DNA from: a virus | IMG/VR virus record: IMGVR_UViG_3300022929_001731 | Location: 1 to 22,513 of that record | Reading direction: 5' to 3' (one strand) | DNA: 22,513 bases | Shown here: piece after piece, positions 5,610 to 22,513 of the stretch | How positions within the stretch are numbered: the first letter of the stretch is position 1 | How the letters are laid out: each line of letters opens with the position of its first letter | Position numbers and translations under genes: made by a program | The notes under the pieces: generated by a model | Told to the model about the DNA's origin: nothing | Seen by the model: the letters and a program-made list of their open reading frames with translations, nothing else | The model's database searches: none

Positions 5610-6692
5610 ATGTCTAATAGAGGTGGTATAGATAGCAATATCACTAACTATCTTGAAAAAGATAATCAACAACTATTTTTAGCAGTCAAAGCGGAGTTTG
5701 ATACAGGTACTATATATTTATGGTCAGGAGATTATAATTTAAGTATAGGTGGTAATACTTATCTAGGTGCAGGAACATTACTATCTATTTCTAATATTGA
5801 AGATACATTAGAACTTAAATCAAGTGGTTTATCAGTCACCCTAGCAGGTATGGATGAAACAATTTTAGATTTAGCATTAACAGAAAATTATCAAAATAGA
5901 TTTATTACAGTTTATCTAGGTTATTTACAAGGTGGCACAGATACTGTTGCAGGTGCTATGACTTTATTTAAAGGTCGTATGCAATCTATGACAATTAATG
6001 ATGACCCTAATGGTTCTACTATTACTGTTGATGCTGAAAATAGATTAATAGATTTACAAAGACCATCTAACCTTAGATATACAAAAGCATCACAGGAGTT
6101 CGTAGCTACAGGTGATACTTGTTTTAATCGTGTTCAGTCTTTACAAGATAAAGAAATCATATGGGGTTCTAGTTCTACCAAAGGTGGTAGTAGTGGTGGT
6201 GGTGGATGTTTTATTTCAGGAACTCAAATACTTATGGGAAATAAGTCTTATAAAAATATTGAAGATGTAAAACTTTATGATGAAATTTATACTTATGATA
6301 TTAATAAAAAACTATTTATAAAATCAAGTGTCTTAGGTTTGCATGAAACTAGTAATACAGAAACAGTTATTATTAAAAACAAACATAAAAACATACATAC
6401 AACACCATGTCACCCTATATATACGCTTGAAAAAGGTTGGGCTAGTGTTGACCCTAGTTTAACAAAAGAACACCATGCAATTGATGTCATGCAATTAGAA
6501 ATAAATGACACTTTATTACTTGCAAACAATGAAAAAGTAAAAGTTAAAAAATTAGTACACAAAAATCATAAAACAGCTATTAAAACTTATAACTTATTAA
6601 ATATATACCAACACAATTCTTATTTTGCTAATGACATACTTGTTCATAACAAAAGAGATGTTAATGATGGAATTACAGAGAAACATAAGTAA
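5610..6692 (+). CDS. DUF2163-like tail-tip protein with C-terminal Hint domain
   Basis: The protein has 360 residues. Residues 1-187 look like the tail-tip protein that follows the distal tail protein in many alphaproteobacterial phages and stands at the place of GTA g13: 'LWSGDYNLSIGGNTYLGAGT' (pattern: lwtG...i...g.ty.G.g), 'SISNIEDTLELKSSGLSVTL', 'AENRLIDLQRPSNLRYT' and 'QDKEIIWG', where relatives normally end. A Gly/Ser linker (about 188-199) leads to Cys200, where a 148-residue Hint domain starts: 'CFISGTQILMG...IEDVKLYDEIYTYD', 'TTPCHPIYT' and the final 'DILVHN' ending at Asn347. Residues 348-360 follow it. The next residue is Lys, so normal splicing is not expected; self-cleavage is possible. 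GAGG lies upstream of the ATG. Confidence 0.82.
   Translation: MSNRGGIDSNITNYLEKDNQQLFLAVKAEFDTGTIYLWSGDYNLSIGGNTYLGAGTLLSISNIEDTLELKSSGLSVTLAGMDETILDLALTENYQNRFITVYLGYLQGGTDTVAGAMTLFKGRMQSMTINDDPNGSTITVDAENRLIDLQRPSNLRYTKASQEFVATGDTCFNRVQSLQDKEIIWGSSSTKGGSSGGGGCFISGTQILMGNKSYKNIEDVKLYDEIYTYDINKKLFIKSSVLGLHETSNTETVIIKNKHKNIHTTPCHPIYTLEKGWASVDPSLTKEHHAIDVMQLEINDTLLLANNEKVKVKKLVHKNHKTAIKTYNLLNIYQHNSYFANDILVHNKRDVNDGITEKHK
6207..6650 (+). other. Hint (intein/Hedgehog-like) domain coding segment, no homing endonuclease
   Basis: The segment encodes residues 200-347 of the tail-tip protein. Block A starts with Cys200 followed by the FISGTQI pattern and an I-E-D-V...Y-D-E-I turn. Block B is T-T-P-C-H-P (the T-x-x-H of inteins). 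The C-terminal block is N-D-I-L-V-H-N followed by Lys. At 148 residues it has mini-intein size with no room for an endonuclease. My hand count gives about 25% G+C for 6241-6660 against about 31% for four sampled lines of the upstream half of the same gene, which hints at separate origin. Confidence 0.82.
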
Positions 6693-7108
6693 TGAAAAAG
6701 AAATTAGACTGGCAAATAGAATTTCATAAATTTATTGATGAAAATAAATTTAAAGGTTTTGCATGGGGTTCATGGGATTGTTGTAAATTTGCTAATGCTT
6801 GTATAAAAGCTATGACTGGAGAAGATTTAATACCAAAAGAATTAAGTTGGAAAAATGAAGAAGAAGCACTTAAATCTATAAAAGATTATGGTGGTACGCT
6901 TAAAAACTCTATTAAAAAAGCAAGTAAAAAAAAGAACCTACTAGAAATAGACTTAGATCATTTACAAATTGGTGATCTTGTAGTTTATAAAGAAGAATCA
7001 CAATTAGTTGGTATATATGATGGTAATTTTGTTCTAACCCCTACTGACAATAAATTAGGTGTTGTAAAAAATGCAAATATTTTATCTGCATGGAGGATAG
7101 ATGGCTAA
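6692..7108 (+). CDS. DUF6950-like (NlpC/P60-fold) tail-tip protein
   Basis: The protein has 138 residues and resembles DUF6950, which takes the place of the NlpC/P60 peptidase between the DUF2163-like gene and the hub gene. Visible are 'FAWGSWDCCKFANACIKAMT' (the Cys-containing start of the fold, Cys30 in the nucleophile position), 'YGGTLKNSI', 'LQIGDLVVY' (pattern: ..GDvv) and the closing 'LSAWRIDG'. In active NlpC/P60 enzymes a His precedes the 'VGIY' strand; here that position is Leu ('QLVGIYDG'), so peptidoglycan-cleaving activity is doubtful and a structural role is possible. Its ATG overlaps the upstream stop (TAATG), and its last eight bases overlap the hub gene. Confidence 0.75.
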   Translation: MKKKLDWQIEFHKFIDENKFKGFAWGSWDCCKFANACIKAMTGEDLIPKELSWKNEEEALKSIKDYGGTLKNSIKKASKKKNLLEIDLDHLQIGDLVVYKEESQLVGIYDGNFVLTPTDNKLGVVKNANILSAWRIDG

Positions 7109-10100: not shown

Positions 10101-13100
10101 CATCTTGGTAATAATACTTTTAGTTCAGCACCATTTAGAGTCACAAGAGCAGGTGAATTAACTGCTACTAATGCCAATGTGACTGGTGATCTAGAAACAG
10201 GAAATCTAATTGTCACAGGTAATGCAGGTATACATGGTGAAGTAAGAGCAACCTCATTAACAGCAGGAACTGTGACTGTTGCAAGTATAAATCAAGAAGT
10301 ATGGAATGAAATAGATGCAAGAACTGCACCAACACAAAATGGTTTTTATGATAATTATGATTCTACTTCTACTGGCACTTACTACAATGGAGTAGCAACA
10401 AATTTTGAATTATTAGGTAGTGGTGGAAATGGTTATCTAAGTAATGGACAAAGTATTAGTATTCGTACCAGTATGGTTCATGGATATGCACAACAAGGTA
10501 GTCAAACTTATACAAATCAATCACTAATAGCAAATTTTCAATTTCAATATAAAGCATTACCAAGTGGAAGCTGGACAGACTTTGGTGATGCTTATGAAGG
10601 TATTACAAGTGTTTATAGTATTCCTAATGGATTTTTCTATGAACTAGATGCTGACCCTGATGCATCAGTTTCACTAAGTAATGGTGTTTATTATCAATTT
10701 AGACTAAGAGTCACTCCTGAAGTCACGACTAATGTATGGGCAGATAGTGATGGAGAAGATGTTTTTGCTATAGCGTTTGCTATACAACAATCATCTACAG
10801 GAACAGGTGCAGGAACAGGTACAGTCACAAGCATTGATGCTGGTGATGGTTTGCAAACATCAACAGGTAGTGCAATAACCTCAAGTGGTTCTTTATTGGT
10901 AGATAGTACAGTTGTTAGAACATCAGGTACACAAACTATAGCAGGTGATAAAACTTTCTCTGATGATATAGTTATTCAAGGTGATCTTGATGTTCAAGGT
11001 ACTACTACAACTATAGATACTACTAATCTTGATGTAGCTGATAAGAATATAACATTAAATTATTCTACAGGTGATTCATCAGCTTCCGCTAATGGTTCAG
11101 GTATTACCATTCAAGATGCTGTAAGTTCTACAGAAGATGCTACCTTAACTTGGAATACAAGTAATGATAGCTTTAACTTTTCGCATGATCTTAATTTTAC
11201 TGACAATATAAAAGCTCAGTTTGGTGCGGGTTCAGATTTACAAATCTACCATGATGGCACACATTCATATTTAGATGATCAGGGGACTGGCGATTTAAGA
11301 ATTAAAACTAATTTCTTTAGAGTTAGAAATACAGGTGATACATACAATATGATAATTGCTAACCAGTCAGGAGCAGTCACACTTTATCATAATGGAAATA
11401 CAAAACTAGCCACAACCTCAACAGGCATAGACGTCACAGGAAACATAGTTGTTTCAGGAACTGTAGATGGTAGAGATGTAGCTACAGATGGAAGTAAACT
11501 TGATGGCATAGAAGCAGGTGCTACAACAGATCAAACACAAGCAGAAATAAATGCGTTAGGTATAACCGCTATAGGTTTATCGGGTAGTCCAAATATAACT
11601 GTAGGAACTATTTCTAGTGGTGCTATAACAAGTACAGGGATTAATAACGCTACTGGTGAAATAATAGACTTAGATCATCCAACTTATACAATCTTAAAAA
11701 ATCCTGAAAATGCCAGTACTTTATATATGGGAGATTCAGGAGATAGAGGCAATTATTACGATAATAATTCTCACCATTTTAGACCTGCGGGTGGTGGTGC
11801 TACCATTAATGCCACAATTAGTGCTACTAGCATAAACGCAAGAAATGGCTCAGTTTTTGCTATAAATGGAACAACAGTAATAGATTCATCTCGTAATCTT
11901 ACTAACATAGGAACTATATCTAGTGGTGTTATAACAAGCACAGGAAACTTATCCCTAACAACAACAGGTTCAGAAATAATGCTTGATGCCTATAGCACTT
12001 CACAAGAGGGTGGTGGTATATTTTTTAGAGAAGGTTTTCAAAGCTCAAACAAATACAACTTATCAATTATAGCAAGGTCAAGAAATGATGATGGCTCTGC
12101 TGATGGCTTATCAATTAATGGCTATGAGGGTGTATTTTTCTCAACAGGTAGTAATTCATATCAAGAAAGATTTGGCATAGATATTAGCGGAAATATTTCA
12201 GTTGGTGGAACTACTATATTAAATCAGTCAAGAAACTTATCTAATATTGGAACTATAACAAATAGTGGACAAATATCTTCATCAGGAAAATTAGTATTTA
12301 CAGACAAAGGCGATTATATAGAGTTCGGTAGTGGTGGTACTGATATATCTTGGACTGCACCAGTCATCTTTAGAGAATCAGCACATTTAGCTTTATCAGA
12401 TTATTCAGGTGTAAAACTTGGTGGATTTAATGGAACAGCTTATGGACCGCGAGTTCATGTTAAAGGTGATGGTAATTTAAGCATACTTGAAGCAGGTTTG
12501 CAGATTGGAAATACTACTGTAATAGACTCCTCAAGAAATCTTACCAACATAGGAACTATCTCATCAGGTGCAATCACAAGTACAGGTTTGACTGTTGATG
12601 GTACAGCTTCAACAGTAGCAACATTTAACACTAATGTTAATGGTTCTCAAATTAGATTAAATGATGGCACTTCATCTACACAACCTTGGGATATAGGTAT
12701 AAAAAATGATGGTTCAAATGATTTTATAATCTATAACTTAGGTGCAGAAAATTTAGAATTTTATAATGCAAATAAATTAAGGCAAAAAATATCATTAAAC
12801 GGAGACATATCCTTCTACGAAGACACAGGAACTACAGCTAAGTTCTTTTGGGATGCTAGTGCTGAATCACTTGAAATTGGAAGTATTGAAAGTTCTACAA
12901 ACTTTCCTTTGGCTGTTAAATCAGGAACTAATGACCATGCTATCTCAATAGAAGAAGCATCAGGTGCTGAATCATGGCAGTTTGGTTTAGATGTTGATGG
13001 AGATTTAGGTTTTTATAATAGTGGTAGCACTACAGCTTCAGTTATTTTTGATGATTCAGGCAATCTGTTGGTAGGGCAAACTTCGCAATCACCAAACACA

Positions 13101-13865
13101 GTTGGTGTTAGTTTGAATAGCAATGGAAATATTAGTGCTAAAAGAGATGGTGGCATAGTTGCTTTATTTAATAGAGCAACATCAGATGGCGAAGTAATTT
13201 CTATTAGAAAAGATGATACAACAGTTGGAAGTATTGGTACTATCTTTGGTGACTTAACCATAGGTGATGATGATGTAGGTATAAGATTTGATACTGGCAC
13301 AGGATTAGTTCCTTGGGATTTAGGTGCAAATTCTACAGGTGGCTCAGCAACTAACGGAACTATAGATTTAGGAGTTAGTGGTGCTGCATTCAAAGACCTT
13401 CACCTTTCAGGAAATGCAAATATAGGAAATAATCTAGATGTTGGTGATGAACTTACAGTTCAAGGTGTATCAACTTTTCAAGATAGTATTCAAGGTACAC
13501 AAGGCACATCAGCAACATTTTCAGAGTTTAATGTTGGTTCAAATGTAGCTATTGGTATAGAAATAAGTAATCTAACAACTACAAGTGCAGTAGAAACAAG
13601 CAGAACATTAGGTAGTGCATCTACCTACAGAACATTTAAACTTTTAGTACAAGCTACATCAGGAACAAGTTATCATGCAACAGAAATATTATTAACACAC
13701 GATGGTACTACTGTTTATATGACCGAATATGGCACAATATTTACAGGAAACTCATTAGCAACTTTTGATGCCGACATTTCAAGTGGAAATGTAAGATTAT
13801 TGGTTGACCCTAACCAGTCTGCGTCAACAACTTTTAAATTTAGCTTATCAGCGATAAAAGTATGA
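7101..13865 (+). CDS. Giant J-like tail hub / fibre protein
   Basis: At 2254 residues this is the central tail-tip (host-specificity) protein. Residues 10-50 contain two hydrophobic stretches. Residues 70-86 carry 'ATAPRQIVYGQCRVGGTI', the standard entry to J-like hubs ('lRsA.aP..ivYG..rvgg'). Hub domains run to about 580. Two fibronectin type III-like domains follow (about 594-690 and 691-795, each with 'TTYY' near the end). Residues 880-1060 form a 'GDINADRIEAGTL'-type beta shaft. About 1085-1232 is an unrecognised beta domain. Residues 1240-2120 are fibre modules, including 'DGSKLDGIEAGATTDQTQAE' and the 'VIDSSRNLTNIGTISSG' repeat. The last 120 residues are a beta domain; there is no S74 chaperone. 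GGAGG precedes the ATG. Confidence 0.88.
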   Translation: MAKHVENALKVFVLVATLGYGLVYFKIIEGAALLAYAGLTAVSTLVGGLLSKGVEASRDNFGTKVSTRNATAPRQIVYGQCRVGGTITHIETSGTDNSILSMVVVLAGHEIESLDGVLINDTLLTTTASGNFQAATNSKFFNSDNDNAFGSGTLLRYKFKDGSQTTADSDVTSNSSLSGLDKFTDVAYVFIQMVFDSEAFGGGIPNMAFIIKGKKVYDPRESGHIFGDESTYAWSNNPALCVLDYITNTTYGLKATSDEFLADLSLGSFKTAANTCETQNTVVPAITSGSTSSSQFVDLVALPSNTLIEVGHIVSGTGISGSPIVLRRTQNQIKLSTAQTLSSGTNLTFKEPAYTANGFTNMTADGTGVLEGLLSSCAGKLSYINGKFVMFAGATVSPQMTINDDNLLQPIQVQTKQTSGETFNKVKSIYIDANNNYVATDTPTLTPNNPDTSNTYLSEDTPTGESSANYEKILELQLPFTDSVSMAERLGNIALLHTRQQTSISILCNIAYMQLQPFDWVYVNNSRLGYTNKVFEVLSTNLEIIEDDGVQVLATRLALKEIQNAVYTFATSDYENPIDEGSSVSTGDFSVSAPTGLSVSATLINTGYDLNVEWTNIADDNIQGTEILYGTSSGTYTGSVITGKGVAKEIINNVKPNTTYYIVARHFSNNNVFSSYTSEVTINTNSDSGITTPSAPTSLSATTGKPLSIGLSWTNPSNSDLRDIQIYRSTSSGFTPDDNTNLVRTIAGVPSVSQKVSFGIDDGLVAGTTYYFKVKAVSFFDKVSTASSQASGSFTKVEATDIEGIFSGYFHVEGSTTTALSDSAFNTAHGRLPIEDDILIMVNTSASPKVSKAYKYSGTAGSGGSFVEITNFTTGDLVVDGSIAGAKIIAGDINADRIEAGTLTSASGVFGSISANDIDTGTLNAANVTISGGDVTINSSGIAINGSSSSINLGSGNFIVSSAGSITAISGTIGGFTLGSTTLTAGSNTTRVSLSTADGIHLGNNTFSSAPFRVTRAGELTATNANVTGDLETGNLIVTGNAGIHGEVRATSLTAGTVTVASINQEVWNEIDARTAPTQNGFYDNYDSTSTGTYYNGVATNFELLGSGGNGYLSNGQSISIRTSMVHGYAQQGSQTYTNQSLIANFQFQYKALPSGSWTDFGDAYEGITSVYSIPNGFFYELDADPDASVSLSNGVYYQFRLRVTPEVTTNVWADSDGEDVFAIAFAIQQSSTGTGAGTGTVTSIDAGDGLQTSTGSAITSSGSLLVDSTVVRTSGTQTIAGDKTFSDDIVIQGDLDVQGTTTTIDTTNLDVADKNITLNYSTGDSSASANGSGITIQDAVSSTEDATLTWNTSNDSFNFSHDLNFTDNIKAQFGAGSDLQIYHDGTHSYLDDQGTGDLRIKTNFFRVRNTGDTYNMIIANQSGAVTLYHNGNTKLATTSTGIDVTGNIVVSGTVDGRDVATDGSKLDGIEAGATTDQTQAEINALGITAIGLSGSPNITVGTISSGAITSTGINNATGEIIDLDHPTYTILKNPENASTLYMGDSGDRGNYYDNNSHHFRPAGGGATINATISATSINARNGSVFAINGTTVIDSSRNLTNIGTISSGVITSTGNLSLTTTGSEIMLDAYSTSQEGGGIFFREGFQSSNKYNLSIIARSRNDDGSADGLSINGYEGVFFSTGSNSYQERFGIDISGNISVGGTTILNQSRNLSNIGTITNSGQISSSGKLVFTDKGDYIEFGSGGTDISWTAPVIFRESAHLALSDYSGVKLGGFNGTAYGPRVHVKGDGNLSILEAGLQIGNTTVIDSSRNLTNIGTISSGAITSTGLTVDGTASTVATFNTNVNGSQIRLNDGTSSTQPWDIGIKNDGSNDFIIYNLGAENLEFYNANKLRQKISLNGDISFYEDTGTTAKFFWDASAESLEIGSIESSTNFPLAVKSGTNDHAISIEEASGAESWQFGLDVDGDLGFYNSGSTTASVIFDDSGNLLVGQTSQSPNTVGVSLNSNGNISAKRDGGIVALFNRATSDGEVISIRKDDTTVGSIGTIFGDLTIGDDDVGIRFDTGTGLVPWDLGANSTGGSATNGTIDLGVSGAAFKDLHLSGNANIGNNLDVGDELTVQGVSTFQDSIQGTQGTSATFSEFNVGSNVAIGIEISNLTTTSAVETSRTLGSASTYRTFKLLVQATSGTSYHATEILLTHDGTTVYMTEYGTIFTGNSLATFDADISSGNVRLLVDPNQSASTTFKFSLSAIKV
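11604..12590 (+). repeat. Fibre repeat units inside the hub protein gene
   Basis: About four copies of a repeated segment coding for 'TTVIDSSRNLTNIGTISSGA' or variants lie near 11604, 11873, 12211 and 12512. The bases are partly conserved: the 17-mer ACTGTAATAGACTCCTC at 12516-12532 recurs exactly three times in the next gene. The copies are separated by unrelated beta-rich stretches of 240-340 bases, as expected of trimeric shafts built from mixed modules. Confidence 0.8.
13059..13415 (+). repeat. Fibre module A, first copy (paralogue at 17743)
   Basis: Codes for residues about 1987-2105 of the hub protein, from 'GNLLVG' to 'FKDLHLSG', with 'SIGTIFGDL' and 'VGIRF' inside. The same order of motifs occurs in the second giant fibre at 17743-18112. 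The first 14 bases (GGCAATCTGTTGGT) are identical in the two copies, and the ends AAAGACCT-CACCTTTCAGG and AAAGACCT-TACCTTTCAGG match almost fully. Confidence 0.75.
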
Positions 13866-13899
13866 TGTAATATAAAACTAAGCACATTGGATTGGGAAA

Positions 13900-16800
13900 A
13901 TGGCAACACAAAAAGATTTTAAGGTAAAAAATGGTCTGATAGTCGGTGGTGGTGATGTATCAGTAAGTTCAGGTTCTGTAAGTATCTCAGATCAAATAAG
14001 TGGAGATACAGGACAAATATCAATTAGTAATGGTCAAAATGGTGACTCTTTTACACGCATAGGTATTACAGGTAGTGGTACTGCTGATTCTTATATTAGA
14101 ACTCATAGTAATTTAGATTTTCATATAGGTCAGTCAGCTACAAGTACAACACCTAGTGTTTCTATTAATACTAGTGGTGCTATTACTAGTGCAAATATAG
14201 ATGTCACAGGTGCAAGTGGTGGAAATGGTCAAATAACAGTCGCTAGAACAAGCGGTTCAACTGTAGCAATACAATCTCAATCTGCTAGAGGATTAATAGG
14301 AACAAGTACAAATCACCCATTTAGACTAATGTCTAATGGTACACAAAGAATAGAATTAGATACTAGTGGTAATTTTAATTTATTAAGTGGTGCTTTAGAA
14401 ATAAACGGAAATACTGTAATAGACTCCTCAAGAAATTTTATTAATGCATCATCTATAGCAAATAATTTAGCAAGTGTAGATTACTCAGGGGTTATGTATG
14501 ATTCTAAAACCACAACTACACAAACAAGTTTTAATTCTTCTAATGCTTTAGCTTATGGTTCTGATTTAGCAGATATAGTTATTGAAAGAAGACATGGTGG
14601 AATTAAACACTCAGTATTAGGTTTATCAGGTTCATTAATTGATTTAAGAATAAATAATTCATCAGGTGATAGTTGGTCTGCGGCACATATTATTGGAGTT
14701 GGTGACCCTGAAGGTGGTTCAGGATATCAAGGTGGTTTAGTATTTGCTACTGGTGGTGGTGGTACTGATAACCCAACAGGTAGAAGAACTAAAGGTGTAG
14801 CACCAACCGCTAGGATGCTTATTGGTGCTAGTGGTAATGTAAGAATTCTTACTGGTAGCTTATACATGGGTTCTACAGAACTTATTACTAGTTCAGGCAA
14901 TCTTGTAAACATAGGAACTATCTCCAATAGTGCTTTTACTATACCCAACAGCATAGGTTCAGCAGGTCAAGTTTTAAAAGTACCATCTTCAGGAACAACT
15001 TTAGAATGGGGAAATGATACAGGTTTAATAACCTCTATAACTAACTTTGCTGATAATAGAATATTAACTGCAAGTGGTTCTACAACTATAAATGCAGAAG
15101 CAAATCTTACCTACAATGGCGATAGAATTAGCATAACTGATGGAACTTTTACAGGATATATAGGAGATAATTCTTCTGTTGTTGGTGGAGATGCTGATGA
15201 CTTTGTAGTTAGTTCAAGTCAAAGATTAGTACTTGGCTCTATAGGTTATGGAAGAGTTTATATTGACGGAAGTGATATAAATGTAAGTGGTAATTTAGAA
15301 ATAAATGGAGTTCAGGTTATTAGTTCTGCTAGGAATATGTCCAATATAGGAACTATCTCTAGTGGTACTATAACAATTACTGATGCCGCAGTACCTCTAA
15401 AGTTTGTTGAATCAGGAAATACTGGAAACGGACAATATTGGAGAATGCCTTTAGATTCAGGCAATTTAAGATTTGATGTTTCTCTTTCTGGTGGTGCAGG
15501 TTTTACAACTTACGATAATATTCTGCAATTAAATTCAGATGGAACTATTGATATTCAATCAGCACAAATGTTTGATAGTTCAGGAAACATTAGCACAACA
15601 AAAACTATCTCTAGTGGGCATATAACAGTAAATACATCAACTTTTAAAACTACTAATGATGCGATTGGACTTTTTACAACTGATCTTACAGTCGGTAATG
15701 ATGTAGCCCAACAATCAACAGCTACACCAAAAAGAATATTTTTCAATAATGACTATTCTAGTGGCTACACAGATGCTTCACTAAAACTTTATTTATTTAA
15801 CGATAGCACTACTAGACAAGGGTTTACTAGCGGTCCTGCTTATGACTTGCAGTATCATTCATCAGGTAGTTCAAGTGGTCGTCATGCTTTTTATGTTGCT
15901 AATGTAGAAGAAGCAAGAATAGATGCAGGTGGTATAGATATTAGAAATGGCGGACTTGATATAAATGGCACAGAAGTTATTTCAAGTTCAAGAAACTTAA
16001 CAAATATAGGAACTATCTCTAGTGGTGCAATTACAACTTCAGGAGATATAACACTTTCATCAGATAGTACACAGATTAAATTTACAGGAACAGGCGGTCC
16101 TTTTGGTTTAGAGTTTGGCGATACAGAAAATAATCCTAATTTTAGAATTTATTATAGAACTTCACCAAATTCCTTAACTTTTGAAGATAATTCTGAAAGT
16201 GCAAAACATACTTTTACTTTAGATGGTGATTATACCGCTGCTAGAGATCTTATTTCTTCTCAAGTCGTCAGAGTAGGAACATCTATATCAATGGGTGGTG
16301 GAAATGCTAAATCTATAGATTTTACAGGTACAGGCACAGACACAGTAGCAAGGAAATTTATTTATGAACAATCAGATCATCACTATGTCACTAATAGACA
16401 TACTGATGGTGATTTAGTTTTGATGTCCAATAATGGTACTGGCGGAGGTGAAACTACAAGAATTACATTACAGTCAGGTTCAGGAACACAAGATATAGAC
16501 ATTACTAATGCTAACTTGGATATGAACTCCAATAATATTAATAATGCAGGTACTATCTCTAGTGGTGCTATAACTACTAGCGCTGCTCTACAAGTTCAAT
16601 ATAGTGGAACTAATAATATTTCATTGTCACCAACTTCAACTGGTGGTGTTATAAATGCTAGAAATTCAAGTGGTACTTCAGTTGTTGTTATGGATGGTAG
16701 AGGAACACCTTTTATAGATGTCACAGGTAATTTAAAAACAGGTGGTACTACTAGAATAGATAGTTCAGGTAATTTAAGCAATATAGGAACTATCAGTAGT

Positions 16801-19800
16801 GGTGCTATTACTGCTACAAGTGATTTAAATCAGCTCAGACTTATGAGAACAGACGATGCTGGAGATGATTGGAGATTTTATTCATGGACTAGTGGATTAA
16901 ATATTTTTCCTTCAGATGAGGCATCAACTGTTTGGTTTGGACGAGACGGTCAAGCAACAAATGTAAGTGTTTATAATGGGAATCTTCAAATTGGTACGAC
17001 TACTGTAATAGACTCCTCTCGCAACCTAACCAACATAGGAACTATCAGTAGTGGTGCAATTACAAGTACATCATCAATAACAGCAAATAGTGGTGGAAAT
17101 GTAATACAAATTGGCACAGATGGAAATATTGAGATTACCAGAACAGCTGGTGGTGCTTATATTGATTTTAAAGATAGCACTAGTGAAGATTTTGACCAAA
17201 GAATACAAGCTACTTCTACAGGACACAGTTTTTCAGGAACTATCTCTAGTGGTGCAATAACATCTAGTGGTGATTTGGCTATTGATACTGATACTTTATT
17301 TGTTGATGTATCAGCTAATAGAGTTGGTATAGGTGAAGATAGTTTAGATGCTAAGCTACATATATCAGACGCAACTTTATCAAATATAAAACTAGAAAGA
17401 CTAGGTGTTAAAAAGTTTGCACTTGGAGTCACAGGAACAGATTTTAGAATAGATGGAACAAACGATGATTTATCTACACCTAGTTTTACTATAGATACCT
17501 CAAATAATGTTGGTATTGGGCTTACATCACTAACAGAAAAGTTTGAAGTAAATGGCTCTATAAATACAAGCAATCAATCATCTAACTTTAATACAGGAAC
17601 ATATCGTACCTTTATGGATATGATAAGCAGTTCAAAAATTGCTCGTATAGGTACTCTAAAAGGTGCTAATACACCTACAGGTTCACAAGGTTCTATTTAC
17701 TTTACAGTTAATGGTACTACCGAAGCTGTTTTAGACCAAGATGGCAATCTGTTGGTGGGTACTACTAATGTTGATCCTGCTGGTGCAGACGTTGCAGGTA
17801 CAGCTATAGGTGCTACTGGTTATATATCAATGTCTCGTAGTAGTGGTGCGGTTGGTATTTTTAATCGTAAAACTAACGATGGTAATATTATTGAATTTAA
17901 TAAAGATGGTACACCAGTTGGAAGTATTGGTAGTGCACTTGGAGATTCTTCAGTAAGTACTTTATTTATTGCAGATGCTGGCAATGTAGGTATACGTTTT
18001 GACCAAGCTGCTACAGATGATATACAACCATGTAATTCTAGTGGTGCTGATAGAGATAATGCTATTAACTTAGGTGCTAGTGATAACAGATTCAAAGACC
18101 TCTACCTTTCAGGAACAGCAAGAAGTAATACAGTTTCTATAAATGGAACAACAGTAATAGATTCATCAAGAAAGATTTTAAATCTTAATGGTGGCATGAC
18201 ACTACAACAAGATGGAACTTATGGTAGCGGTTATGGAATGTTATCTTTTAGTGGCACTACTAATGGTCATAATAGAATTTTTGCAAGAAATGATGGTTCA
18301 GATAGTTTATATATTTGTTCTGCTACAAGTAGGAATATAACTTTTAGAACCAATGGTGGCACTGCTAATACCTTTGCAATGACAAGTGGTGGTGACTTAC
18401 AAATGAATGACATCACTGTAATAGACTCATCTCGTAATTTAACTAATATAGGAACTATCTCATCTTCATACTTTTATACTTCAGGAAACATAAATGCAAC
18501 AGGTGTTGCAGGAGCTACAGTTGGTGGCGGTCGTTTAGGATTTGACGAATCAGGTACTCGTAGTTGGACTATGGGCGTAAGTTCAGGTTATCTAAATGTA
18601 TTCAGTGGTGATGGCAATGGTGATCTTAATTTAGCTAATAGTATTGGATTACGCCAAAATGGAACTCTTGTTTTGGATTCGTCAAGAAATTTAAGCAATA
18701 TAGGAACTATCTCTAGTGGTGCTATAACAAGTAGTGGAACTTTATCTTTAGGTAGTCATTTTCAAGCAGGAACAAATGTTTTAGCAGGTTTTTTCCAAGA
18801 TTCAGCTAATGGTGCTTACAGAGCTATTGGGACTAGTTCAAATAGAGGATTTTATTTTCAATCAAATGCAGGTGCTAATACTTATATGTATGTTGGTCTT
18901 ACTGGTACTTATGCGGGTAGAGTTGGTGTGGGGACTGCATCTCCCGCAGAGCAATTTCATGCTACAGGAGTGGCAAGAGTAGGCAGTCTTAAAATTGGCA
19001 CGACTACTGTAATAGACTCCTCTCGTAATTTAACAAATATAGTTGGTGGTGAGATAGGAAATAGCACAGATTCAAGAGGAATATTAACAATCAATCATAG
19101 CACTTCTAACACTACAACAAGTGGTGCAGGTACAGGTGCTGATATTGGTGATAGTAATAGAGCCTTGACTCTTAATAACCCAAACAATAACGGAACTGCA
19201 AGTAATTATGTAGCCTTAAGTTTTAATTTAAACCCATTTGCCAGTAGTTCTCGTTGTATGGCAGATATTAAGTTGCTTAGATCAGGAACAAACTCTAGTG
19301 CTAATGCTTTACATTTTACCCAAAAACATAGTGACGGAGTTTTTTATAATAATTTAGTTATTAACTCTAATGGCACTATTAATACTAGAGGTGGCATTAC
19401 TACAAATACAGGGGGTATACATGTTGCAGGTGGTCTGACTTTTGCACAAGGAAATCACTTTTTAGGTGAAGAAGGTGGTCAAGGACAATCTGAAGATTTA
19501 GTATTGAGAACAGGAGCAGATACTAATGATCAAACGATTAAGATACAAGCAGGATATGGGAATCCGGGCGATGTTTCAGGAAAAATACAGCTTTATACTG
19601 ATGGAGACACAACTACACCAAAATTAGAGATTGATGCTGATGGCAATATTAAAATGGGTTCTACGCAAATTATATCAAATGGTAGAAACCTTACAAATAT
19701 AGGAACTATTACAGCAGGTGGAGATATAGCTTCAAGAACATCTGCATATCCGGGCGGTAGACTGATTCTAGATCGTACAGCTTCTTCATCAGGTGCTATG

Positions 19801-21033: not shown

Positions 21034-21384
21034 TTGGATTCAGCAGTATCACTAATTACTGAAGTAGGATTTCCTATTGCCGCCGCATTAGGACTTGGCT
21101 ACTTTGTTTGGAAACTTATCATGCGAATTATTGATGGTATGGAAACCAAACTTGATACTGTTGATGAAAAAGTTAATTTATCAATATCTGCTATGGAAGA
21201 AAGGTTAGGTACAAAACTTGACTCACAACATGGTATTTTAGTAGCATTAATTGATAGGGTTCGTAGTTTAGATAATGAAATCATTAGACAAGACACCTTA
21301 ATTAAAACTATTCTAGGAGTTCCACAACTTATAGATAGTAGTAAAATAGCAAAGGCAGATAGAGATGACCAAAGAAAAGATTAA
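21034..21384 (+). CDS. Membrane-anchored coiled-coil protein, candidate holin
   Basis: This 116-residue protein starts with TTG, supported by GGAG eight bases upstream inside the end of the previous gene. Residues 4-28 ('VSLITEVGFPIAAALGLGYF' and on) form a single membrane segment. The rest is a charged helix with heptad-like spacing ('METKLDTVDEKVNLSISAME', then 'LVALIDRVRSLDNEI'). One N-terminal membrane helix followed by a coiled coil resembles BhlA/UviB-type small holins, and its place after the fibres and before CsgF/CsgG suits a lysis function. It could also be an unrelated membrane anchor. The final 20 bases overlap the csgF-like gene. Confidence 0.65.
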   Translation: MDSAVSLITEVGFPIAAALGLGYFVWKLIMRIIDGMETKLDTVDEKVNLSISAMEERLGTKLDSQHGILVALIDRVRSLDNEIIRQDTLIKTILGVPQLIDSSKIAKADRDDQRKD

Positions 21385-21907
21385 GAAAAAAAGAGGTAGA
21401 CCTAGTAAAGCTGAACTTCAAAGAAGAAAAGAAGCTAAAGAAAAAGATACTATAATTAAATGGGTATCTGTTATAGGTATTATTTTAATTTTAGGAATAT
21501 TTATACAAAATGCTAAAGCAGATCAAATAGTCCATAAGTTTAAATCTCCTTCTTTTAATGGCATAGGTACATCTAGTCATTATCTAACTATAGAAAATCA
21601 AGAGTTTAATCGTAAAGAAGCAATAAAAGCGGAGATAAAAGCATACAAAGAAGAATTAAAAAGAGAAGCTGAAAATACTACACTTGCTAGGTTCATACGA
21701 AACCTAGAATCAAGAATCTATGCTCAACTGAGTAGGCAATTAGTAGATAATTTATTTGGTGAAACACCTAGTGATTCAGGAACTATTGAATTAGAAGGTA
21801 ATATCATTGAATATACCAGTGATGGAGTTTATATTACTCTTAAAATAACTGATGCCGATGGAAATATTACAGAAATCACGCTACCTATTGGTTCTTTTAC
21901 TTTCTAG
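21365..21907 (+). CDS. csgF: CsgF-like curli assembly factor with long basic N-terminus
   Basis: This 180-residue protein resembles CsgF, the periplasmic/extracellular partner that sits in the mouth of the CsgG outer-membrane pore. Residues 1-29 are very basic and contain 'KKKRGRPSK', an AT-hook-like motif. Residues 31-47 are hydrophobic, and 'NAKA' at 49-52 followed by Asp is a signal peptidase I site. The mature start 'IVHKFKSPSFNG' parallels the 'FxFxNPxFGG' N-terminus of CsgF, the part that plugs CsgG. The C-terminal half ('LESRIYAQLSRQLVDNLFG', then 'YITLKITDADGNITEITLP') parallels the helix and beta sheet of CsgF. The previous gene overlaps it by 20 bases and the CsgG gene by 50, so the three are likely translated together. 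Confidence 0.85.
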   Translation: MTKEKIKKKRGRPSKAELQRRKEAKEKDTIIKWVSVIGIILILGIFIQNAKADQIVHKFKSPSFNGIGTSSHYLTIENQEFNRKEAIKAEIKAYKEELKREAENTTLARFIRNLESRIYAQLSRQLVDNLFGETPSDSGTIELEGNIIEYTSDGVYITLKITDADGNITEITLPIGSFTF

Positions 21908-22513
21908 TTGTTCTATAACTAGTGTTTTACAAGACACAGAACAATATATATTTGAAAGCAAAAAAGTAGATAAAGCAAGTATCTACTCTTTACACTCAAA
22001 AGAATTACAAGAAGTTAAGCGACCACTAAATATGCCAGTAGTTGCTGTATATCCTACTTCGTTTACAGATCAAACAGGACAAAGAAAATCAAATAGTGAA
22101 TTTGCATTATTTTCTACTGCAGTCACACAAGCACCAAGCAATTTATTAATACGAGCATTAAAACATACTTCTAATGGTAAGTTTTTTCGTGTAGTAGAAA
22201 GAGTTGGTCTAGATAACTTAACTAAAGAAAGACAAATAATTAGATCAACAAGAGAACAAATGGAAGAAGAAACTGCTCTACTACCTTTGCTGTTTGCAGG
22301 TGTGTTGCTAGAAGGTGCTGTTGTATCGTATGATAGTAATCTAATTACAGGTGGTGCAGGTGCTAGATATCTAGGAATAGGGTCAAGTGTACAGTACAGA
22401 GAAGATACGATCACTGTGAGTCTTAGAATGGTTTCTGTAGCTACTGGAGAGATACTTATAGAAGTTATGTCCAGTAAGACTATCTTTAGTTATGGTCAGT
22501 CACAAGATGTGTT
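21858..22513 (+). CDS. csgG: CsgG-like outer-membrane lipoprotein pore, partial (3' end outside window)
   Basis: Of the usual 270-280 residues of CsgG, 218 lie inside the window. The ATG at 21858 lies within the csgF-like gene in another frame and gives a lipoprotein signal, MEILQKSRYLLVLLLSSC, with lipobox L-S-S-Cys18. CsgG marks are 'DQTGQRK', 'LFSTAVTQAPSNLL' (E. coli: NFSTAVPQSATAML), 'FFRVVERVGLDNLTKERQII', 'VLLEGAVVSYDSNLITGGAG', 'ARYLGIGSSVQYREDTITV' and 'TGEILIEVMSSKTIFSYG'. CsgG forms a nonameric pore that exports curli subunits. Of the E. coli constriction residues Tyr51, Asn55 and Phe56, only Phe appears kept (Phe85); the position before it is Leu84. No curlin gene is seen, so substrate and role are unknown. 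Confidence 0.92.
   Translation, partial: MEILQKSRYLLVLLLSSCSITSVLQDTEQYIFESKKVDKASIYSLHSKELQEVKRPLNMPVVAVYPTSFTDQTGQRKSNSEFALFSTAVTQAPSNLLIRALKHTSNGKFFRVVERVGLDNLTKERQIIRSTREQMEEETALLPLLFAGVLLEGAVVSYDSNLITGGAGARYLGIGSSVQYREDTITVSLRMVSVATGEILIEVMSSKTIFSYGQSQDV

Follow-up and report, generated by a model that had tools for sequence, protein, structure and literature searches.

In most descriptions, bacterial intein-like (BIL) domains are fixed parts of bacterial proteins that are themselves variable. Two types are separated by their C-terminal ends, A-type domains ending in His-Asn and B-type domains being without block G (PMC4031507). A-type BILs, described by Amitai in 2003 and Dassa in 2004 as reviewed in PMC4031507, mainly promote cleavage, and splicing has been proposed to occur when a freed amine attacks the thioester (PMC4031507). 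BILs without a nucleophile at position +1 mostly cleave rather than splice (PMC7664689; PMC4031507).

We analyzed a Hint domain encoded within the baseplate hub gene of an uncultured marine siphophage. The window, i.e. the whole stretch of viral DNA that was analyzed, is 22,513 nucleotides long (IMG/VR record IMGVR_UViG_3300022929_001731, positions 1 to 22,513). Judged from its sequence, this domain is an A-type and not a B-type BIL by the published definition (PMC4031507): the Hint fold, Cys1 and TxxH are combined with a His-Asn end, Cys, Ser and Thr are absent from +1, and all hub copies carry Lys at this position. An earlier note made on this DNA had likened it to type B domains; the presence of block G, the His-Asn end, rules out the B-type and points to the A-type (PMC4031507). 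We consider it likely that the domain is an endonuclease-free, intein-like element of the A-type BIL class that occupies one fixed site in the hub and leaves the hub either religated or deprived of its tail.

The hub gene and its Hint domain

The window carries a siphophage tail module encoding head completion, tail completion, tail tube, tape measure, distal tail and hub proteins, a DUF6950 peptidase and a J-type tail-tip protein. The local order, tape measure - distal tail - hub - DUF6950 peptidase - J, matches that of the isolated Roseobacter phages CRP-406 and CRP-811, the hubs of which (about 190 residues) are too short for a Hint. The features of the locus are as follows.

5610-6692, + strand: hub open reading frame including the Hint, 360 aa
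5610..6167, + strand: N-terminal flank (N-extein), residues 1-186, baseplate hub protein, lambda gpL / RcGTA g13-like (phrog_2048)
6168..6206, + strand: Gly/Ser-rich linker, residues 187-199, the last four Gly abutting Cys200 (from the sequence; the run is also present in Hint-free hubs)
6207..6650, + strand: Hint domain, assigned to A-type BILs, residues 200-347, 148 aa (phmmer, profile, AlphaFold2, Foldseek)
6207..6209, + strand: Cys200, Hint residue 1, predicted nucleophile of the N-S acyl shift, with Gly199 at -1 (invariant in 51 phage Hints)
6402..6413, + strand: block B TxxH, Thr265-Pro-Cys-His268, Hint residues 66-69 (in 51 Hints, Thr66 and His69 are conserved to 90% or more)
6645..6650, + strand: His346-Asn347 (Hint His147-Asn148), block G, predicted C-terminal cut by Asn cyclisation (invariant in 51 Hints, a set picked for HN ends)
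6648-6650, + strand: Asn347 codon
6651-6653, + strand: Lys348 codon (+1)
6651..6689, + strand: C-terminal flank (C-extein) starting with Lys348 (+1), residues 348-360, KRDVNDGITEKHK, to the stop codon (position, length and charge as in Hint-free hub tails)
6692..7108, + strand: next gene, DUF6950/NlpC-P60-like tail peptidase (PF22262, 4.3e-24), the ATG of which overlaps the hub stop codon
7101..13865, + strand: J-type tail-tip protein (phrog_31, central tail fiber J, 4.9e-31), probably adjacent to the hub in the baseplate

Elsewhere in the window, repeat units of the IDSSRNLTNIGTISSG type (11603-19737) are common to two giant tail ORFs of 2254 and 2282 aa, the second with a C-terminal Peptidase_S74 self-cleaving chaperone domain. 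Genes resembling CsgF (21365-21907, 3.5e-18) and CsgG (21852-22511, 1.3e-39), both of curli secretion, are also present in this phage contig.

The hub part was matched by phrog_2048 (tail protein) at 1.1e-49 over residues 12-206 of the ORF product, and more weakly by the baseplate hub attachment domain Phage_phiJL001_Gp84_N (3e-5, slightly below the Pfam cut-off). Attachment-domain homology and the order Dit - hub - peptidase - J both place the protein among siphophage baseplate hubs of the gpL / g13 type. A full-length hub fold computed from 14 sequences reached a pLDDT of only 36 and the model was discarded.

A complete Hint domain at Cys200-Asn347 is confirmed by sequence matches far beyond chance and by the structural model. 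With the single window Hint as query, phmmer matched the BIL2 structures 6y75/6tmm at 1e-7, and a profile of 51 phage Hints matched BIL2 at 2e-24 and the C. thermocellum BIL 2lwy at 5e-22, above all true inteins. The AlphaFold2 model built on the 51-Hint alignment has a pLDDT of 97, and Foldseek ranked BIL2 6tmm first (TM 0.90), then 2lwy (0.82), then inteins. A Cys start and an HN end are found in 101/105 near-full-length Hint matches. A search of IMG/VR with the window Hint as a single sequence found nothing, and the IMG/VR relatives were recovered with a 7-sequence alignment as query. Combined, these results bear out several proposals of the earlier note: a full hub-like part within about the first 187 residues, followed by a Gly/Ser linker, a full Hint from Cys200 to Asn347, and Lys after the terminal Asn with 13 residues to the end. 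The thioester and Asn chemistry that it expected is supported by the residue set. In HMM searches of the kind that it suggested, BIL structures were matched. The Pfam Hint models stayed below their cut-offs on the hub sequence, and PF13403 had no match in the window.

The sole Pfam model above its cut-off on the Hint part of the hub is AXH (ataxin-1/HBP1 module), which matched 40/51 phage Hints (window 6210-6521 and 39/50 of the others). The profile of phage Hints in turn matched ataxin-1 AXH structures at ~2e-10 over Hint residues 2-109, and AXH may be a relative of Hint. No text naming both 'AXH domain' and 'intein' was found in the literature searched.

Occupied and empty hub sites

For a comparison of hub C-termini, 80 sequences related to the hub part were taken from IMG/VR, and those with a readable C-terminus were scored. 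Nine of them, in addition to the window, carry a Hint; in all others the Gly-rich run is present as well and leads into a short, charged tail of 7-23 residues (mean 13.3 aa). In every Hint-bearing hub the domain lies exactly at the junction of Gly run and tail, always reading HN at its end and K[KR]D immediately beyond, and is followed by 12-14 residues. A DNA pattern scan for this junction over the whole viral collection returned the same nine contigs and no further ones. The window hub without its Hint would have 212 residues (360 - 148); all Hint-bearing hubs are 212-217 aa long once the Hint is subtracted, and empty-site hubs are mostly 210-220. Hubs that are 83-87% identical to that of the window are without Hint.

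As empty-site hubs have the same Gly run and a charged tail, the 13 residues are the native hub C-terminus, and not the by-product that the earlier note had taken them for. The comparison also shows an inserted and not, as the earlier note had it, an appended Hint: hub sequence flanks it on both sides, the Gly-rich run before it and the short C-terminal tail after it. As the tail codons also contain the start region of the overlapping next gene, its start signals, and not selection on the peptide, could partly account for the likeness of the tails. The C-terminal segment of the hub is a "clip domain" in RcGTA (PMC7296036) and in roseophage R4C (PMC10276861), and the 13-residue tail may correspond to it. 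A tblastn search of phage isolate records returned no Hint-bearing hub; its Hint matches were all weak and distant, and many lay in helicases and terminases.

On a tree built from hub N-terminal DNA, the presence of the Hint is sporadic and requires at least 3 changes; a tree with Hint-bearing hubs in a single clade was rejected (AU p = 0.0013), and the window hub falls among empty-site hubs (support 89/96, on a branch without a star). Yet within 76 phage Hints, those of hubs make up a single clade (100/97). In several pairs of the other group of hub Hints, synonymous change is much lower in the Hint than in the hub: mismatches between L031 and L038 amounted to 5/141 in the Hint compared to 37/104 over hub codons 1-120 (Fisher 3e-11), and those between L028 and L031 to 13/134 compared to 39/105 (p = 5e-7). 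This contrast is not strong in the closely related hub pairs L032-L038 and L001-L009, which argues that the Hint is not simply slow-evolving. Among pairs of the other group of hub Hints, to which the window copy does not belong, DNA identity is highest over the Hint and drops on either side; in one pair the island takes in ~200 bp of upstream hub sequence, and a conversion tract of this size in the hub gene can distort the hub tree. The window Hint is 52-54% identical to the other hub Hints, compared to 81-85% for the hub part, and its synonymous sites are near saturation (0.33-0.37 observed, 0.40 expected), so that no date or direction can be assigned to its transfer. The Hint of 148 aa is without an endonuclease insert, and HNH, HNH_3, GIY-YIG and LAGLIDADG_3 had no match in the ten Hint-bearing contigs, which are fragments. 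By these patterns the Hint is an intein-like allele that moves horizontally by recombination at one fixed hub site; several losses combined with recombination could mimic part of the lateral pattern.

Predicted fate of the hub protein after translation

We favour the reading of a laterally moving A-type BIL given the complete catalytic set, the exact insertion, the sporadic distribution and the lateral movement of the Hint at the site, which the sequences show. After translation, Cys200 is predicted to form a thioester with Gly199 by N-S acyl shift, and Asn347 would cyclise, which would cut the chain before Lys348 and release the Hint. Because Cys, Ser or Thr is lacking at +1, the usual branched intein intermediate cannot form. 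Either the free amine of Lys348 would attack the thioester, religating the hub to its 13-residue tail (A-type BIL splicing), or hydrolysis would leave a hub that ends near Gly199 and has lost the tail. Both outcomes would give a hub like those of insert-free relatives, and the site would therefore tolerate an element without a nucleophile at +1. We are less confident that splicing predominates than that the Hint is removed.

Removal at Gly199 might also be useful in itself during tail assembly, with the Hint serving as a C-terminal pro-domain and maturation consisting of cleavage only. The catalytic set is intact, a Gly at -1 together with a flexible linker is conducive to thioester release, and A-type BILs mostly cleave (PMC7664689). 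We nevertheless hold this to be unlikely: most close hub relatives are without Hint, which indicates that the tail does not need the step, and the native tail is retained downstream of the Hint. The dedicated step in tail maturation that the earlier note envisaged is likewise unlikely in view of the Hint-free hubs of 83-87% identity and the sporadic distribution on the hub tree. It is highly improbable that the Hint is an unreactive remnant that merely extends the hub. The absence of a nucleophile at +1 and the divergence of the window copy, down to 52-54% identity with others, would fit such a remnant; however, Cys1, TxxH and HN have survived that divergence, and most pairs of the other group of hub Hints (not the window copy) have a dN/dS of ~0.1-0.2, so that the domain is maintained there.

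Transfer of the Gly199 thioester to a Lys side chain, either that of Lys348, giving a branched hub, or one of a neighbouring baseplate protein, would result in an ATP-free isopeptide cross-link. Tetrahymena BIL2, the closest solved relative, is reported to form an isopeptide bond with a Lys epsilon-amine (PMC8616854), and Lys occupies +1 in 24/48 phage Hint clusters compared to a background of 6%, an excess for which the p of 1e-16 is overstated as clusters were treated as independent. Cellular relatives carry it too (22/77), which weakens the idea that a Lys at +1 is special to phages. The excess of Gly at -1 is biased, as one search required Gly-Gly-Gly-Cys. Against transfer, the presence of the Hint is sporadic, a candidate partner protein was not identified, and Lys is found at +1 also where nothing else follows (VHNK ends of L101, L129 and L267), so that it may be a family trait. 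We regard transfer as improbable; if it did occur, it would place a cross-link in the virion tail tip, analogous to ubiquitin conjugation driven by BIL2.

Relation to other Hints and to known systems

A Gly-rich approach, an HN end and a frequent Lys at +1 are common in Hints of uncultured phage structural proteins. A Hint lies near the N-terminus of J-type tail-tip proteins of other uncultured phages (residues 61-207 in L093, 18-147 in L111 and 24-156 in L264); both neighbouring tail-tip proteins, hub and J, are thus used as hosts. Tandem Hint arrays in one protein are present in L280, L089, L094, L101 and L129, most of them HN-ended, and L280, a Thermoplasmata MAG contig, has nine. In L101, L129, L267 and L294 the protein ends in HNK, a single Lys following the Hint with nothing else left to ligate. 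In L160, L179, L184, L271 and L135 the Hint precedes a DPLAQ[ST]F motif in phage proteins of up to ~2,800 aa, one of which has DUF4815.

No paper reporting a BIL or a Hint in a phage tail protein was found in open-access titles, abstracts and passages, a scope outside which the original BIL papers lie. What seems new is the occurrence of empty and occupied alleles together with lateral transfer of a BIL at one site. An A-type BIL with clear lateral transfer in a virion structural protein, and with no endonuclease found in ten fragment contigs, offers a natural setting in which to ask if inteins and BILs grade into each other. Two further questions are how such an element persists without a nucleophile at +1, and if the +1 Lys, common in this Hint family, has a part in the chemistry.

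Several related classes were considered and set aside. A Hedgehog Hog domain is ruled out, with no sterol-recognition region, only 13 residues after the Hint and a His-Asn end; a pretoxin HINT is ruled out, with no C-terminal toxin domain in those 13 residues; and a class 3 intein (no Cys1, WCT motif) does not agree with the presence of Cys200.

The hub Hint shares with the A-type BILs 2lwy and 6tmm/6y75 the Hint fold, Cys1, TxxH and His-Asn, the lack of Cys, Ser or Thr at +1, the lack of an endonuclease, and insertion in a variable protein region. It differs from them in residing in a virion baseplate hub that is otherwise well conserved, at a fixed site with empty-site relatives and with intein-like horizontal movement between alleles. 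Like class 1 mini-inteins, it has the catalytic residues up to Asn, precise site-specific insertion with empty-site homologues, a sporadic distribution and lateral transfer. Unlike them, it has Lys348 where class 1 inteins have Cys, Ser or Thr, its site is a variable, flexible Gly-rich tail and not a conserved functional or catalytic motif, and splicing is only predicted; a homing endonuclease, which mini-inteins may lack, was found neither in cis nor elsewhere in the ten fragment contigs. Tetrahymena BIL2, at the polyubiquitin BUBL locus, is the best structural match (TM 0.90); it is flanked on both sides by ubiquitin-like domains and makes isopeptide bonds, whereas the hub Hint has a phage hub as N-terminal flank and 13 residues as C-terminal flank. 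The Gly-Cys junction and the Hint core recall the Hedgehog autoprocessing domain (1at0, TM 0.71), but Hog has N-terminal chemistry only (PMC7664689) and the hub Hint keeps His-Asn. Finally, Hints of other uncultured-phage structural proteins in IMG/VR (J N-termini, a DUF4815 protein, Gly-rich tails) have the same Gly run, CF..GT start, HN end and frequent Lys at +1, while they reside in different host proteins and the hub Hints form a clade of their own.
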